Origin: Halobaculum limi
GTDB taxonomy: Archaea; Halobacteriota; Halobacteria; Halobacteriales; Haloferacaceae
Length of the DNA stretch: 64,000 nt
Direction: 5' to 3'
NCBI RefSeq assembly: GCF_029490015.1
Contig: NZ_CP120469.1
Location: forward strand, 124,001-188,000
The translations under genes were made by a program, and so were the position numbers. Below, piece after piece: positions 8,952 to 18,777 of the stretch; position 1 is the stretch's first letter, and each line of letters begins with the position of its first letter. The notes beneath the pieces are model-generated. The model was given only the letters and a program-made list of their open reading frames with translations. It was not told where the DNA came from and ran no database searches.

Positions 8952-10148
8952 ATGTCGGCTCGTAATCCACCCGTTGGTGGGCGAGTCAAACCTGGTTTCG
9001 AAGCGGTCGAGTCGGCTTTTCAGGAGACCCTGCGTGAATCAGGCGAATTCGGAGCCGCTTGCGCAGTCTCCCACCGGGGTGAACTCGTCGTCGACCTCTG
9101 GGGAGGATACCGCGACGCCCGTCGAACCAAACCGTGGGACGAGGATACGCTCGTCCTCGTCTTCTCCACGACGAAGGGTGTCGCTGCAGCGGCGATGGCC
9201 CACGCTCGCTCACGCGGATACTTCGAGTACGACGACCGAGTGGCGGACTACTGGCCTGCCTTCGGCCAGCACGGGAAAAACGATGTTACAATCCGCCAGT
9301 TGCTTGCTCACCAAGCCGGAGTCGCCGCCATCGGACGGAGTCTGACCTCCGCAGACGTCGCGGATTATGACTCGCTCGTCGACCGTCTCGCCACCAAAGA
9401 GCCGGACTGGATACCGGGAACACGACACGGCTACCATGCGTGGTCGCTCGGGTGGTACGAGAACGAACTGCTTCGTCGGACCGACCCCGACAGTCGGACA
9501 CTCGGAGCCTACGCGGCAGCGGAACTGTTCGATCCGCTCGGAGAGACGTTTCGCATCGGCGTCCCCGAATCGGTCGACGAACGTATTGCGTACGTCGAGC
9601 CGTTCAGCCCGCTCGACGCAGTCCGGAACCTCCGGTCGTTTCCCCCCAGATTGCTCCTCGGACTCGCCAATCCCTTCTCCACCGTGTCCCGGGCAATGAA
9701 CCCGTTCGACGTCTCGACACCCGCCGAGTTGAACGACCCCGAGTGGCGTTGCCTTGAGATCCCTGCAGGAAATGGGGTGGGCACTGCCCGTTCGCTCGCG
9801 CGACTCTACGGGGCGCTCGCAACAGACGGCGAACCGCTCGGCATCGACAGCGAGACGCTCGCGGCGCTGGCCGCGCCTGGGACGCCACCGACACGCGGTC
9901 GACGGGATGTGATTCTGGGTACCGAAACCTCCTATTCGCTCGGCTTCTGGAAGCCCTTCGAGGACTTTCAGTTCGGGAGCAGAGCCGCGTTTGGCGCACC
10001 TGGTGCGGGTGGCTCGTTCGCGTTCGCCGACCCCGAACGGGAACTCGGATTCGCTTACACGCCGAATCGGATGGGGACATATGTATGGGACGACCCACGA
10101 GAGCTTCGGCTCCGGCGGGCTGTCGAGCAGTCTCTGGTGGGACGATGA
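8952..10148 (+). CDS. Class C beta-lactamase-like serine hydrolase (EstB type)
   Basis: 398 residues. The catalytic S-x-x-K is FSTTKG with Ser72 and Lys75. The second motif Tyr161 is in GYHAWSLGW, as in EstB-type esterases rather than true beta-lactamases. A later Gly-rich segment (GAPGAGGSFAF) occupies the place of the KTG-like motif. There is no signal peptide, so the enzyme is probably cytosolic and acts on esters or amides. ATG 8952 has a purine-rich RBS (GGAGGAGGG) 7-15 bp upstream. Monocistronic. Confidence 0.88.
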   Translation: MSARNPPVGGRVKPGFEAVESAFQETLRESGEFGAACAVSHRGELVVDLWGGYRDARRTKPWDEDTLVLVFSTTKGVAAAAMAHARSRGYFEYDDRVADYWPAFGQHGKNDVTIRQLLAHQAGVAAIGRSLTSADVADYDSLVDRLATKEPDWIPGTRHGYHAWSLGWYENELLRRTDPDSRTLGAYAAAELFDPLGETFRIGVPESVDERIAYVEPFSPLDAVRNLRSFPPRLLLGLANPFSTVSRAMNPFDVSTPAELNDPEWRCLEIPAGNGVGTARSLARLYGALATDGEPLGIDSETLAALAAPGTPPTRGRRDVILGTETSYSLGFWKPFEDFQFGSRAAFGAPGAGGSFAFADPERELGFAYTPNRMGTYVWDDPRELRLRRAVEQSLVGR

Positions 10149-13895: not shown

Positions 13896-15172
13896 ATGTA
13901 CTACGCCTACAAGTACCGTCTCAAGCCGTCCGACGCCCACTGCGAGGAGTTGGACCGCCACCGAGACATTTGTAGGCAACTGTACAATCACGCGCTCTAC
14001 CGCTTCAACCAAGTCCCCGAGGACACAGGCACACTCAACCAGCGTGTTCGGTCCATCCGTGACGAAATTCCGTCCCTGAAAGACTGGTGGGGCGACCTCT
14101 TGGACGTGTACTCGACAGTTCTGCAAACAGCAGTTATGCGAATCGAGCAGAAAGTCAAGTCACTCGGAGGACTCAAGGAGAACGGCTACGGTGTGGGTCA
14201 ACTCAACTCAACTGGAAGCCGCCACGGGAGTTCCGCAGTTTCACCTACAGTCAGTCTGGCTTCAAGCTCGACAAGAAGGGCGGTCAGACTGTCTTGTCAC
14301 TCTCGAAACTCGCGGACATCCCGATTCGGCTCCACCGCGCCATCCCCGACGACGCGACACTCAAGCAGGTTACGCTCAAGAAAGAGCCGACGGGCAAATG
14401 GTTCGCCACGTTCGGTGTCGAAATGGACCGTGAAGCGCCTGAACCGCCTGAGAACCCCGAGAAGTGCGTCGGAATCGACGTTGGGATTTGCAAGTACGCC
14501 CACGACACTGATGGCACAGCGGTCGGGTCGCTCGACCTCTCGGATGAGCGTGAACGCTTAGAACGAGAACAACGGAAGCTCTCGCGGAAGGAACACGGGT
14601 CGAACAACTACGAGAAGCAACGGCATCGAGTAGCAGAGTATCACGCCTCTCTCCGACGGAAGCGCCGCGACTTCCTGCACAAACTCTCAGCGTACTACGC
14701 TCGGGAGTACGACCTTGTGGCAGTCGAAGACCTGAATGTCATGGAGATGATGGAGTCACCGTCGAATAGCCGTAACACCGCGTCTGCCGCGTGGCGAACG
14801 TTCCTCTCGATGCTCGAATACAAGTGCGAGCGTGAGGGGACGCATTTCGTGGCGGTCAACCCGAGCGGGACGACCAAGGAGTGTGCGTCGTGCGGCGTTT
14901 CGACGGAGAAGCCATTGTGGGTCCGTGAACACTCCTGTCCCGCCTGTGGGTTTGAGGCGGATAGGGACGCGAACGCGGCGTGGAACATCCTTTCTCGCGG
15001 CCTCGAAGATGTAGGAGTGGGACACTCCGAAGGAACGCCTGTGGAGACTGCGCTCCCTACGGGTGCGGACGTGGACGACGATTTGTCGTTCCGTCTCGTG
15101 CCTGCAAAGCGCGTCGTGGAAGCAGGAAGCCCTCCCCTCAAGGAGCGAACGGCGTCAGCCGTGAGCGAGTAG
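13896..15172 (+). pseudogene. tnpB: TnpB RNA-guided nuclease gene, frameshifted
   Basis: The N-terminal part (MYYAYKYRLKPSDAHCEELD onward) is in one frame. The RuvC-like core and zinc ribbon are in another: GIDVG (first Asp), VAVEDLNVM (Glu), CASCGVS...CPACG, and ADRDANAAWN (last Asp). The frames part at 14199-14213, where CAACT occurs three times in a row (CAACTCAACTCAACT). Two copies would restore GYGVGQLNWKPPREF in one frame. All catalytic residues survive in the second frame, so the lesion looks recent. A C-terminal product from an internal start would lack the N-terminal half of the nucleic-acid-binding lobe. Confidence 0.85.
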
Positions 15173-15183: not shown

Positions 15184-15387
15184 TCACCTGAACCGCGCTC
15201 GTAGTCGGTGTCCGTTCCATATGAGCAGTCCAGAGAGGACGAGCGACGGGAACACCAACGCCTGCACCGCGAGTTCGACGCTCGCAATCTCGTTCAGCGG
15301 GGAGTAGAGGTACACTCCAAGCGTCGTCGCCAGCACGACGTGGACGAGGCGCTGTGTCGACCGCGACCAGATCCGACCCGAGCTCAT
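15184..15387 (-). CDS. Small two-helix membrane protein (67 aa)
   Basis: MSSGRIWSRSTQRLVHVVLA begins a basic N-terminus followed by two hydrophobic segments (about 14-30 and 38-57) and a basic end (HRLRARFR). This resembles the short membrane proteins scattered through haloarchaeal genomes. The stop lies 4 bp from the IS right end, so the element landed just behind the gene without cutting it. Function unknown. An AT-rich promoter-like stretch lies around 15450-15480. Confidence 0.55.
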   Translation of the reverse strand: MSSGRIWSRSTQRLVHVVLATTLGVYLYSPLNEIASVELAVQALVFPSLVLSGLLIWNGHRLRARFR

Positions 15388-15485: not shown

Positions 15486-16258
15486 TTACTCCGTCGCATC
15501 CAAGGAAGGTGTCGGCTTGGAACCCGTCGAGGTCCACGTGCCGTCCGGAGCGAGCGTCCGGTGGCCGTACGTGAACACGAGCGCAGCCACCACGGTCCAG
15601 AGGATCAGTAGCTTTGCGTCAGGCGCGACGGCGCGCACGAGCGCAGCTACTTCGATAGCATCCTCACCGAGCGGTCTGAACGCGTTTACTGAGTTGTTCG
15701 CGGCGTAGTAGAGCATCGCGACGACGACGCTCCCCTCGTGGCGTTGAACAGCCAGGTCAAGACGATACTCACACCGATGATAGAGCCGACGTACGCCACG
15801 AAGGAGCTGCTCGTCGGTGCCATCGTACCGTCACCGAGTACGAACAGTGGCCTATGCCAGAGCGCCCAGTGGAGGCCGACGATGACAAACGCAAGCAGCG
15901 CACTGAGACGCTGCTGAAGGCGCGGAAGGAGGAACACTCGCCATCCGACCTCCTCTTGAGCGCCACAGATGGTCAGCGCGAGCAGGAAGTGGACGGTGAC
16001 GGCGCCGAGTGGTGGCGAGGGAATCCCCACCTGAACGCCTGAGAGCACGAATAGTGGCGCGCCGGCGACGACAATCGCGATGGGCAACGCAAGCGCCAGA
16101 CCGTACCACCACAAACTGATACGAGGAGCAAACGAGCGCACCCAGTCGGAAACACTTTCTCTAGCACCGCGCACGCAGACGGCGGCTGCGGCGGCCGGCC
16201 CGAACGCACCGAGGAGGACTAGCGGGCCGGGCGGAAGACCATCGCTCACTACGAACAA
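15486..16258 (-). pseudogene. CPBP intramembrane protease, frameshifted and start-less
   Basis: The first frame carries the CPBP/CAAX protease motifs EEVGWRVFLLPRLQQRL and HWALWHRPLFVLG in a protein with about seven helices. At the C-run 15732-15735 the frame breaks: FNATRG continues as MLYYAANNSVNAFRPLGEDA in the next frame, as expected if one base were lost from the run. The last helix ends at 15486. Coding similarity also extends upstream of the TTG at 16258 (FLDFGLTWGLWILL) to about 16306 without ATG or GTG, so the natural start seems mutated (ATT where ATG is expected). Probably dead, unless the base loss is a sequence error. Confidence 0.75.
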
Positions 16259-16396
16259 GAGTATCCACAGTCCCCACGTCAGGCCGAAGTCGAGGAAGCT
16301 GAATGTCAGAATTAAGTGGTGACGAATGAGTGTCGATGTACGTCAGTCAGCGACTTACCTGCGCGTTCGGGTGTCCGGATCTGGTTCCCGAGCCAG

Positions 16397-16415
16397 AGTT
16401 TCCAACTCAGAAACT
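16397..16415. promoter_or_regulatory. Operator candidate, imperfect copy of the 19-bp palindrome
   Basis: AGTTTCCAACTCAGAAACT matches the perfect palindrome at 18042-18060 at 16 of 19 positions and keeps both half-site tips AGTTTC/GAAACT. It lies upstream of the minus-strand CPBP protease gene, so the same regulator (probably the winged-helix protein encoded at 18101) may bind both sites. Confidence 0.5.
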
Positions 16416-16508
16416 GGTTGAGAACGTGAGGGAGTGTGATTTTCACCGCACGCTTGCTCGATCAACGAACCATCTTCGTCGTCTCTCATCGCTACACGAC
16501 GTTCGACT

Positions 16509-17264
16509 TCAGCTACTAATGGACCGGGCGTGTTGGAGTACTGTTGCTGTTATTAGGCCCAGACCCCGAGCGATGGCGTTCAGGACGTGCAGCGAGATGA
16601 TAAACAGGACCACACCAAAGGCGGCGACGACGAGCGCCTCACCCAGCGTATCGACGTTCCACTCGGAGAGCGTGATGACAGGGGCGAACGTGACCGACCA
16701 CAGGTCCTGCACGAATCGAATCTTGGGCGCGAACGTCAACGTCGTGTCGTAGAAAACGCGATACGACCCGGGCCGGTCGTACACCAACGGAGCCACCAGT
16801 AACGCCCCGGTCAGGCTGACTAGAAACGTCAACACGGTGAACGTGACGATGCCGACGGCGAGTTTCGAGAGCAGAAACACGAGGCTGACGTACGTCCCGG
16901 TGTCGAGAACGAGTTCCTTCGCGTACTCAGTGATCCCGTCGGGCGCTGTAAGCGGGACCGCTCGTGCCGTGACTTGGCGCGACAGCAGTGTGTTGGCTAA
17001 GAGGACCTCCACTCGAGTGAGGCCCGTCACGAACACGAGTGTTGCGAGGAGCAGCGGAACACCGACGGCGACGACCGAGAGACCGACACCAAGTGCCAAC
17101 AGCGTGGCCAACAGGGTCACGTACGCGATGCCGAGCGGGAACTGTAGCGCGAGATATGCGATGTTGCCGTACGTCTCTCGACGGAACGGGACGCCGAAGA
17201 CGGCCCAGAGGCCGTCGGTAAGGCGCTCGATCGGATCAGAACGGGAAGTGGAGGACGTAGACAT
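16509..17264 (-). CDS. Sensor-domain (PF13796-like) membrane protein
   Basis: 251 residues from ATG 17264 (MSTSSTSRSDPIERLTDGLW). The segment FRRETYGNIAYLALQFPLGI followed by a four-helix core matches the putative sensor domain found at the N-terminus of actinobacterial and archaeal kinases, but here no kinase follows. The neighbouring gene at 17296-17997 is a paralog with the same start pattern (LQTYKNLAYLALQFPLGVAY). Both are probably membrane sensors or regulators of the adjacent transcription factor. An upstream in-frame GTG would add 20 residues of unlikely character. Confidence 0.7.
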   Translation of the reverse strand: MSTSSTSRSDPIERLTDGLWAVFGVPFRRETYGNIAYLALQFPLGIAYVTLLATLLALGVGLSVVAVGVPLLLATLVFVTGLTRVEVLLANTLLSRQVTARAVPLTAPDGITEYAKELVLDTGTYVSLVFLLSKLAVGIVTFTVLTFLVSLTGALLVAPLVYDRPGSYRVFYDTTLTFAPKIRFVQDLWSVTFAPVITLSEWNVDTLGEALVVAAFGVVLFIISLHVLNAIARGLGLITATVLQHARSISS

Positions 17265-17295
17265 ACGTGATAGTCTTGGTGGGGGTAATTCGTGT

Positions 17296-17997
17296 TTACG
17301 CCTGGTTCGACACGGTCGGTGCACTGCCGAGGACTCGGGCGCGTCGGCACGCGATCGCGGTCGCGTTACCGAGCAGCCACGCGAGTGCGTTCCACAGGTT
17401 CACGACGACGAACAGACCGACGACGCCGACGACGGCAAGCGAGAGTGCCTCGGGAAGCGTGTCAACCACGGCTGTCCCGCCGCCGAGCCAACTCGGGAGG
17501 GGGAACGTGTAGTTCCCCATCGGAGAGGTGTACAGGAACGGGGCAGCGATAGCCACTGCGACGAGCGATCCCGTGACGGTCAGCACGACGAACGTCGAGA
17601 CGCCGACGACGAACTTCGCGAGGACGAACCCGACGCTCAGGTACGTTCCCGGGTCGAGCAGGAGGTCCTTCGCGTAGGTGACCGCACCGTCGTCAATCGA
17701 CGCAGTCGCCGTGTGTCTGTCGAGTTCCACCGGCAGCAAGAGGCCGGTTACCGCGCGGTCAACGGTCATCGTTGCGACGCCGAGGAGGAGTGCACCGATG
17801 ACCGGCAGTCCGAACAGTACCAACAGCGGGAGCGAGCCAGCTCCCACTGTCAACGCCGGGATCAACAGCGAAAAGTACGCCACCCCGAGCGGGAACTGCA
17901 ACGCGAGATACGCGAGGTTCTTGTAGGTTTGGAGCCTGACTGGGGCAGTCAGGAACGCCGTCGCAACCGAGTGCGGTGTTTTGTGGGCAGGTTGCAT
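17296..17997 (-). CDS. Sensor-domain membrane protein, paralog of the next gene
   Basis: 233 residues from ATG 17997 (MQPAHKTPHSVATAFL). The same layout as the downstream gene: basic N-terminus, FPLGVAYFSLL helix, and paired helices around an outside loop (YTSPMGNYTFPLPSWLGGGT). The two genes are 31 bp apart and clearly arose by tandem duplication. The gene starts 45 bp from the perfect palindrome at 18042-18060 and is divergent from the winged-helix regulator, so negative regulation is likely. Confidence 0.7.
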   Translation of the reverse strand: MQPAHKTPHSVATAFLTAPVRLQTYKNLAYLALQFPLGVAYFSLLIPALTVGAGSLPLLVLFGLPVIGALLLGVATMTVDRAVTGLLLPVELDRHTATASIDDGAVTYAKDLLLDPGTYLSVGFVLAKFVVGVSTFVVLTVTGSLVAVAIAAPFLYTSPMGNYTFPLPSWLGGGTAVVDTLPEALSLAVVGVVGLFVVVNLWNALAWLLGNATAIACRRARVLGSAPTVSNQA

Positions 17998-18041
17998 TAC
18001 GAGTCCCACTCAGATTGGGAAAGTGATAACTGATGAAGCCG

Positions 18042-18060
18042 AGTTTCTGAGTCAGAAACT
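18042..18060. promoter_or_regulatory. Perfect 19-bp palindromic operator candidate
   Basis: AGTTTCTGA-G-TCAGAAACT is a perfect inverted repeat with a single central base, placed between the divergent sensor gene (start 17997) and the winged-helix regulator gene (start 18101). Position and symmetry indicate a binding site for a dimeric regulator, most simply the product of 18101-18448. A related site lies at 16397-16415. Confidence 0.65.
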
Positions 18061-18100
18061 GTGCCGTATCAGATAACTTCCCCCCGTCCGTTCACCCGCT

Positions 18101-18448
18101 GTGAGTGAGGACGTGGACCGCGTTGAGGTACTTCGACTCCTCGACGATGAGTACGCCCGTGCCATCCTCACAGCGACTAGTAGAGAGCCTATGTCAGCAA
18201 AGGAACTCGCGGCAGCCATCGACGCCTCACCCCCGACTGTCTACCGTCGGGTAGACGACTTGCAAGCGGCTGGGCTCATCGTAGAAGAACTCCAGTATGA
18301 GTCGAGTGGCCACCACTACGGCGAGTATCGCATCTGCGTCGACCGAGTAACGGTCACATTTGAAAACGGCGAGTACACCCTCCAACTAGATCCTACCGAG
18401 GAGACCACGGCAGACCGCTTCACCAGACTCTATGAGGGACTCAGATGA
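18101..18448 (+). CDS. ArsR-like winged-helix transcriptional regulator
   Basis: 115 residues from GTG 18101. The winged helix is plain: DDEYARAILTATSREPMSAK, then LAAAIDASPPTVYRRVDDLQ and AAGLIVEELQYESSGHHYGE as the wing. The last 35 residues form a short beta/helix extension. The stop overlaps the next ATG by 4 bp (ATGA). In haloarchaea this type of regulator is regularly coupled to a DUF7521-type membrane protein, as here. It probably controls the divergent sensor genes through the palindrome at 18042. Confidence 0.85.
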   Translation: MSEDVDRVEVLRLLDDEYARAILTATSREPMSAKELAAAIDASPPTVYRRVDDLQAAGLIVEELQYESSGHHYGEYRICVDRVTVTFENGEYTLQLDPTEETTADRFTRLYEGLR

Positions 18449-18777
18449 TTACGCTCCAGGTGACCCAGACTGGCGACACCGTACAAGTGTTCGTGGTTCT
18501 TGCGACGTTCCTACTCTCGGCGTTGCTCGGCCTCGTTATCGCACGGAAGGCGTACCAGGGCTATCGCCGGAACGCCTCGATGCCTATGCTGTATCTCGCG
18601 GCCGGCATCGTCCTGTTGACAGCCATCCCCGCAGTGCTCTCGTTGTTCCTCTCGACGTTCACCACACTGCCAAATTATCTCGTCGTCGTGGTGACGAACG
18701 GCACCGAACTGCTCGGCCTCACCGCCATCGCCTACTCGCTGTACGGCCGCTTCGGATCGGCGGAGGAGCGCGGATGA
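18445..18777 (+). CDS. DUF7521-like membrane protein (110 aa)
   Basis: Three hydrophobic segments (about 17-35, 48-70 and 77-97), with the RKAYQGYRRNASMPMLYLA loop between the first two, are typical of the small membrane partner of haloarchaeal winged-helix regulators. It overlaps the regulator gene by 4 bp and the next small gene by 4 bp, so all three are translated as a coupled unit. Probably a membrane-based co-sensor. The role is inferred. Confidence 0.7.
   Translation: MITLQVTQTGDTVQVFVVLATFLLSALLGLVIARKAYQGYRRNASMPMLYLAAGIVLLTAIPAVLSLFLSTFTTLPNYLVVVVTNGTELLGLTAIAYSLYGRFGSAEERG

Follow-up and report, generated by a model that had tools for sequence, protein, structure and literature searches.

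In the haloarchaeon Halobaculum limi, a perfect 19-bp palindrome separates the gene of a winged-helix (wHTH) regulator from a divergent pair of Sensor genes, and an imperfect copy lies beyond that pair, next to the remains of a protease gene. The locus raises the question of which protein reads the palindrome, which genes it controls and in which direction, and whether the second copy belongs to the same circuit. A sequence-only reading of the 64,000-nt stretch that carries both copies (contig NZ_CP120469.1, positions 124,001 to 188,000; hereafter the window, whose numbering is used throughout) had joined the regulator, its membrane partner, two sensor-domain proteins and a CPBP protease into one regulon of membrane sensing or proteolysis. 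The account that we prefer, with a probability of about 0.6, is that the perfect copy would serve the wHTH product of the 18101 gene as its operator, in autoregulation beside the BRE, probably by activation and with a DUF7521 protein as membrane partner, and that the second copy would be a relic.

Two palindromes and their genes

Site 1, AGTTTCTGAGTCAGAAACT (18042..18060, as read on the forward strand), is a candidate operator between divergent genes, with complementary arms of 9+9 bases flanking a single central base. To its right, on the forward strand, lie the wHTH gene (18101..18448; 115 amino acids), whose GTG start is 40 nt from the site and whose product matches Pfam HTH_20 at 45.6 bits (cut-off 27), and the gene of a DUF7521 membrane protein (18445..18777; 110 amino acids; PF24365 at 40.7 bits, cut-off 27), whose first 4 nt are the last 4 nt, stop codon included, of the wHTH gene. 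Divergent from these, to the left and on the reverse strand, are Sensor1 (17296..17997), with its ATG 44 nt from site 1, and Sensor2 (16509..17264); their products score 68.8 and 85.9 bits against PF13796 (gathering cut-off 28.2) and are the only matches to this family in the whole genome at E 0.001. Site 2 (16397..16415) follows, and then, also on the reverse strand, come a CPBP or Rce1-like protease remnant (15486..16327) and the gene of a small protein of 67 amino acids (15184..15387), membrane-like by eye and free of Pfam matches. A similar small protein is encoded behind Sensor2 in G108, a genome of the same genus. AT-rich elements occupy the TATA positions of both promoters that flank site 1: ATAACTT (18073..18079, forward strand) for the regulator, at +22 from the palindrome centre, and TTATCAC (18023..18029, reverse strand) for Sensor1, at an offset of 22 on the other side.

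Two features of the surroundings were recorded, under names given by eye, as was the ABC transporter name among the neighbours discussed below. At window positions 13896-15172, beside the locus, a TnpB-like gene runs through two different frames and has a short tandem duplication close to 14205. Similar hydrolase-like proteins are encoded near the locus both here (G000, window 8952-10148) and in G108 (L074:9440-10660), which suggests a common gene order.

Both copies lie exactly where the sequence-only reading had placed them, site 1 as a perfect palindrome and site 2, AGTTTCCAACTCAGAAACT, as a copy with 16/19 identity to it, in which the outer 6-bp arms are perfect and the centre is non-palindromic. 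Allowing up to three mismatches, the window contains four matches (the two sites on both strands) against 0.02 expected. A genome-wide search for AGTTTC-N7-GAAACT, which that reading had proposed, returned exactly two places in 3,478,749 bases, sites 1 and 2, and none for the reversed-pattern control. The further sites elsewhere in the genome that it had hoped for did not emerge: with two mismatches allowed, AGTTTCYN5RGAAACT gave 19 matches across the whole genome versus 17 for the control, with nothing beyond sites 1 and 2 above background. The idea of a wider regulon in this genome was dropped on this result, and any regulon of the exact motif would therefore be confined here to one locus.

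A one-mismatch site within Sensor2 (16861..16879) was rejected as a further regulatory site. In G108, Sensor2 likewise contains a one-mismatch site, equally far from the gene start (a distance obtained by arithmetic), so the match is probably set by the coding sequence.

Position and conservation of site 1

Seventeen of the compared loci face Sensor genes, seven with a wHTH identity of at least 57% and ten with 43-50%. All seven close loci (the present one, G000, together with G108, G022, G020, G116, G065 and G091) carry the palindrome just upstream of TATA-like DNA, 39-41 nt from the start of the wHTH gene, and in each the 6+6 arms contain no more than one mismatch. Among the ten distant loci (L127, L131, L134, L136, L151, L153, L163, L165, L167 and L169), one reaches 6 of 8 arm pairs and nine have no palindrome of that quality at the position, and after this check our conservation claim is confined to close relatives. 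Because position, spacing and promoter context are kept in the seven close loci, we read site 1 as a conserved operator, very probably of the wHTH protein beside it, and the comparison supports a role shared by the wHTH-DUF7521 operon and the divergent Sensor operon. This part of the sequence-only reading, which had named a lack of conservation in related strains as refuting, is supported.

Across the 11 genomes of the genus, G108 alone has a close locus (Sensor2 69% identical, versus 39-40% for the rest); a scan of genome contigs gave Halapricum hydrolyticum as the sole relative, at 40%, and a plasmid search gave 133 records with relatives below 60% identity.

We surveyed the exact pattern in 148 genomes, themselves a draw from the family, and found 34 matches in 29 of them, compared with 10 for the reversed control. 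Twelve matches have a relative of this wHTH downstream, at a distance of 40-58 nt in four cases and 271-333 nt in eight (40-333 nt overall). Two more are second sites, in G000 and in G139. The remaining 20 stand without such a relative within 1.5 kb. The occurrence of the pattern away from wHTH relatives would fit binding by some factor other than the 18101 protein, but the distance from palindrome to wHTH gene recurs across paralogues and the half-sites change with the wHTH recognition helix (below), and we regard another binder as very improbable.

The second exact site of G139 (L076:8849-8867) is placed 44 nt behind a gene that resembles an ABC permease by eye, that is, behind the divergent operon, and an AT-rich element accompanies it at roughly the usual offset.

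The same arrangement can be followed through the wider wHTH family. We assembled 98 distinct wHTH loci from the top 30 matches, the paralogues in this genome, four motif loci and 60 rows in rough rank order, an uneven sample from which L066 (no tblastn match) and one duplicate were left out and in which 97 loci had enough upstream sequence. Scoring a palindrome as at least 6 of 8 arm pairs with its centre 48-52 nt upstream, and using as controls the other genes of the same loci except those whose start is no more than 300 bp away from that of the wHTH gene, we found one in 48/97 wHTH loci versus 19/331 control genes (Fisher p 2e-21, relatedness ignored). No such palindrome was present at this position in the other 49 wHTH loci. 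At 30-34 nt the counts were 1/97 versus 23/331, and at 70-74 nt 8/97 versus 29/331. A stricter palindrome score, with the divergent partner genes still among the controls, gave a weaker contrast (36/97 versus 62/465). Where palindromes are clear (39 loci), the AT content on the wHTH side reaches 92-97% at +21 to +24 from the centre, from which it follows that the palindrome abuts the expected BRE; on the other side of the same loci it is 85-92% at +23/+24.

Some loci depart from this layout. In L081, L082 and L083 (G112, G047 and G007), a palindrome and a TATA-like element stand ~270-315 nt upstream of the wHTH gene, and the palindrome is followed by a partly conserved stretch with no clear coding sequence, possibly a leader or a small RNA. 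L049, L053 and L060 have two differing TTTTCTG-type palindromes in tandem upstream of a single wHTH gene. A paralogue in the present genome (G000:C1:123468-124359; L062, L206, L208) has the operator core TCGCTGGGCCAGCGA and two tandem DUF7521 matches.

The neighbours of these regulators are also recurrent. Downstream ORFs were scanned in 94 of the 98 loci (L032, L041, L065 and L081 were dropped as overlong or in the wrong frame), by an automatic choice that favours hydrophobic ORFs, and the gene after the wHTH gene encodes DUF7521 in 81 of the 94; all six DUF7521 matches in this genome sit behind wHTH relatives. Upstream, 59 loci have a divergent neighbour, 18 a same-strand one and 21 none called. 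Family assignment covered the 59 divergent neighbours, among which Sensor (n = 16) and Rce1/CPBP (n = 16) were commonest, followed by Copper-bind (n = 6) and CARDB (n = 6). These counts support membrane-protein targets in general. The proposed regulon is borne out at site 1 and, in outline, across the family, while the membership of the protease at this locus is unproven; the label of membrane sensing or proteolysis is taken from family names.

The second copy and the protease gene

Site 2 lies before the CPBP sequence, as had been claimed, but the CPBP gene lacks a conventional start codon around the expected position, and the listed ORF begins at TTG 16258. The main part, 15686-16327, matches the CPBP domain PF02517 at 40 bits (cut-off 22.4), and the presumed C-terminal part, recognized by eye in another frame at 15486-15716, has no Pfam match of its own. 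The gene looks broken, with the qualification that the frame breaks could be sequencing errors.

The sequence-only reading amounts to a working second operator at site 2, by which the Sensor proteins, regulator, DUF7521 protein and protease would form one present-day regulon. The exact outer arms speak for this, as do the CPBP genes that face wHTH relatives in 16 of the 59 divergent loci. Six of the nearest CPBP relatives (in G092, G002, G016, G077, G030 and G050) likewise face one. Homologous N-termini, hand-aligned on the RH motif, also put roughly 31-37 nt between site 2 and the lost CPBP start, near the usual spacing. Against it, site 2 has no counterpart in the six other close loci: apart from site 1, a scan for second sites returned nothing but the coding match of G108 and, in G022, a three-mismatch site 4.5 kb off, and a separate comparison found a two-mismatch site 3 kb away in G116. 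G065 is one of these six and has a CPBP relative ~2.5 kb beyond its Sensor gene, yet lacks site 2. Neither side of site 2 has an AT-rich element at the usual offset, the nearest being at +31 on the + side. Together with the broken appearance of the gene, these results make a working site 2 doubtful.

If site 2 is not in use, it may be either a remnant or an accident. Missing conservation, the missing promoter at the usual place and the missing intact gene would all suit a chance resemblance that leaves site 1 as the one functional copy, and exact matches with no wHTH relative nearby do occur in the family (20/34). However, the only other exact match in the genome sits 1.6 kb from site 1, and from the 10 reversed-control or 20 unlinked matches per 148 genomes we calculate, post hoc, a probability of ~1-2 in 10,000 for a chance match within 2 kb of site 1, which makes a chance origin unlikely. 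Our preferred explanation is that site 2 most likely once controlled, as its operator, a CPBP gene located behind the Sensor operon and has outlasted the decay of gene and promoter. A CPBP relative was not found within the 15 kb examined in G108, which leaves two histories for CPBP and site 2, gain in this genome or loss in G108.

Operator spelling, membrane partner and sign of regulation

Half-site spelling varies with the recognition helix of the neighbouring wHTH protein. We compared the two in the 39 of 98 loci with clear palindromes, including one (helix DPST) that is probably mis-registered and was kept. For helices of the form S-x1-x2-T, the third half-site base is C in 35/36 half-sites where x1 is D, G, E or Q and T in 30/34 where x1 is L or P, and the fifth base is G in 7/8 with V or I (and Ser). 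Across 480 pairs with dissimilar C-domains, operator similarity correlates with the helix (r 0.37, with 0/2000 permutations as high) and not with the C-domain (r -0.02), and the partial correlation with other protein parts controlled is 0.29; relatedness accounts for part of this correlation, and the permutations disregard the tree. Out of sample, in two other families, a palindrome was present in 24/58 loci (counted without control genes), and within these the SLPT class keeps T in 37/40 half-sites, whereas SRPT helices, which fall outside the classes, have T in 3/6 and G in 3/6; this set consists mainly of the one SLPT class and hardly samples the others. The computed support for site 1 thus consists of uniqueness in the genome, a maintained position and spacing, the promoter context and the covariation of half-site with helix.

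On this basis, we infer that the 18101 protein is the binder of site 1: a wHTH dimer on the 19-bp palindrome, which directly adjoins the BRE/TATA of both divergent promoters on their upstream side, would jointly govern the wHTH-DUF7521 operon, which encodes it, and the Sensor1-Sensor2 operon. Bound there, the dimer would most likely activate by aiding TFB/TBP recruitment, in the manner of TFB-RF1 at the equivalent position, and the DUF7521 protein, with its GYRR motif, may be a membrane partner passing an envelope signal on to the regulator.

TFB-RF1 (PF1088) of Pyrococcus furiosus is the nearest precedent, likened here by its features and not by descent. In the parts of PMC5937170 that concern it, its palindrome lies just upstream of the BRE/TATA at a conserved distance, it shares an operon with PF1089, a small membrane protein with four predicted TM segments, and it activates its own operon and an ABC exporter by recruiting TFB to a weak BRE, within a very small regulon. 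Site 1 and its 39 clear relatives are likewise just upstream of the BRE/TATA at a fixed distance (48/97 loci overall), the wHTH gene here also shares its operon with the gene of a small membrane protein, the regulon would again be very small, and TCTG/CAGA occurs within site 1 too. The differences are that the TFB-RF1 consensus in those parts of PMC5937170 is TCTGAANTTCAGA, whereas site 1 reads TTTCTG-N3-CAGAAA and departs from that motif; that DUF7521 is modelled with three helices in place of four predicted segments; and that the second target is an ABC exporter there and the Sensor genes here, activation being shown for TFB-RF1 only.

A geometry of this kind does not dictate the outcome of binding. 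CsmR of Haloferax volcanii, in another haloarchaeon, binds a semi-palindrome adjoining the BRE/TATA; one passage of PMC13286277 calls it a positive regulator, and passages of the same source have its targets rising in the deletion strain. It differs from our case in its motif, TATCA-N4-TGATA, and in its many sites, the motif being reported in a passage there for 50/65 ChIP peaks. By this analogy, the placement of palindrome and BRE would leave the sign of regulation unfixed.

The wHTH protein could instead repress both operons, its own included, with DUF7521 taking it to the membrane upon a signal. This is how SdpI sequesters the autorepressor SdpR in Bacillus subtilis, where, in the sections of PMC1626106 that describe the pair, a two-gene operon also encodes a small regulator and a membrane protein. 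The shared operon layout of small wHTH and membrane protein, the weak SdpR-family matches of 35/56 members and the abutment of palindrome and expected BRE, through which a dimer could block TFB, are consistent with such a scheme. The fold lends it some further weight. The AlphaFold2 model of the wHTH protein (pLDDT 86.8) is closest in Foldseek to Phr (2p4w, E 3.5e-5), which is a repressor, followed by PH1932 (2cwe, E 4.8e-4), at 18-21% identity in the structure alignments, and a profile search matches PH1932 (1uly, 2cwe) at E 6.5e-9; both are ArsR-like archaeal wHTH proteins of the same fold. At family level the wHTH protein scores 25.6 bits against a curated cut-off of 100 for the SdpR autorepressor family (NF033789) and 24.4 bits against one of 55 for the ArsR/SmtB metalloregulators (NF033788), reaching neither. 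The site overlies neither the start, which is ~50 nt downstream of its centre, nor the TATA position, ~22 bp from the centre, and this also speaks against repression. The partner protein, too, matches DUF7521 and no SdpI family, and SdpI is absent among the 23 families listed for the 94 downstream partners. We consider autorepression with membrane sequestration rather unlikely. Given TFB-RF1 as a precedent for activation, alike in geometry and in having a membrane partner, we put activation at a little better than even odds, and repression appears less probable.

DUF7521 itself is modelled as three helices (pLDDT 80.6) and had no structural match in a fold search (best E 0.7). Residues G39, Y40 and R41 of its GYRR motif occur in at least 90% of 94 sequences, and across the phylum the family is present in 82/246 genomes, 60 of them over the cut-off. 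Haloferax volcanii also has DUF7521. A narrow search of the open literature found no paper on DUF7521, and the terms used there found no description of the wHTH-DUF7521 module.

Taken together across the family, the loci tentatively point to a set of parallel, membrane-coupled one-component systems in haloarchaea, a picture to which we give somewhat less than even odds. Each wHTH-DUF7521 pair would form a separate channel, reading an operator of its own whose spelling depends chiefly on the two residues that follow the helix serine, and would drive a divergent envelope gene (a Sensor, a CPBP protease, a copper-binding or surface protein or, in some loci, an ABC transporter), with DUF7521 sensing envelope stress and freeing or holding the wHTH protein. 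If true, this would be an archaeal counterpart of bacterial membrane-held regulators. Archaeal regulators for which operator, membrane partner and target are all known are few, and the wHTH-DUF7521 family would supply several such systems per haloarchaeal genome. A readable link between helix and operator would allow operators to be predicted for uncharacterized haloarchaeal wHTH proteins, and DUF7521 would gain a testable role.
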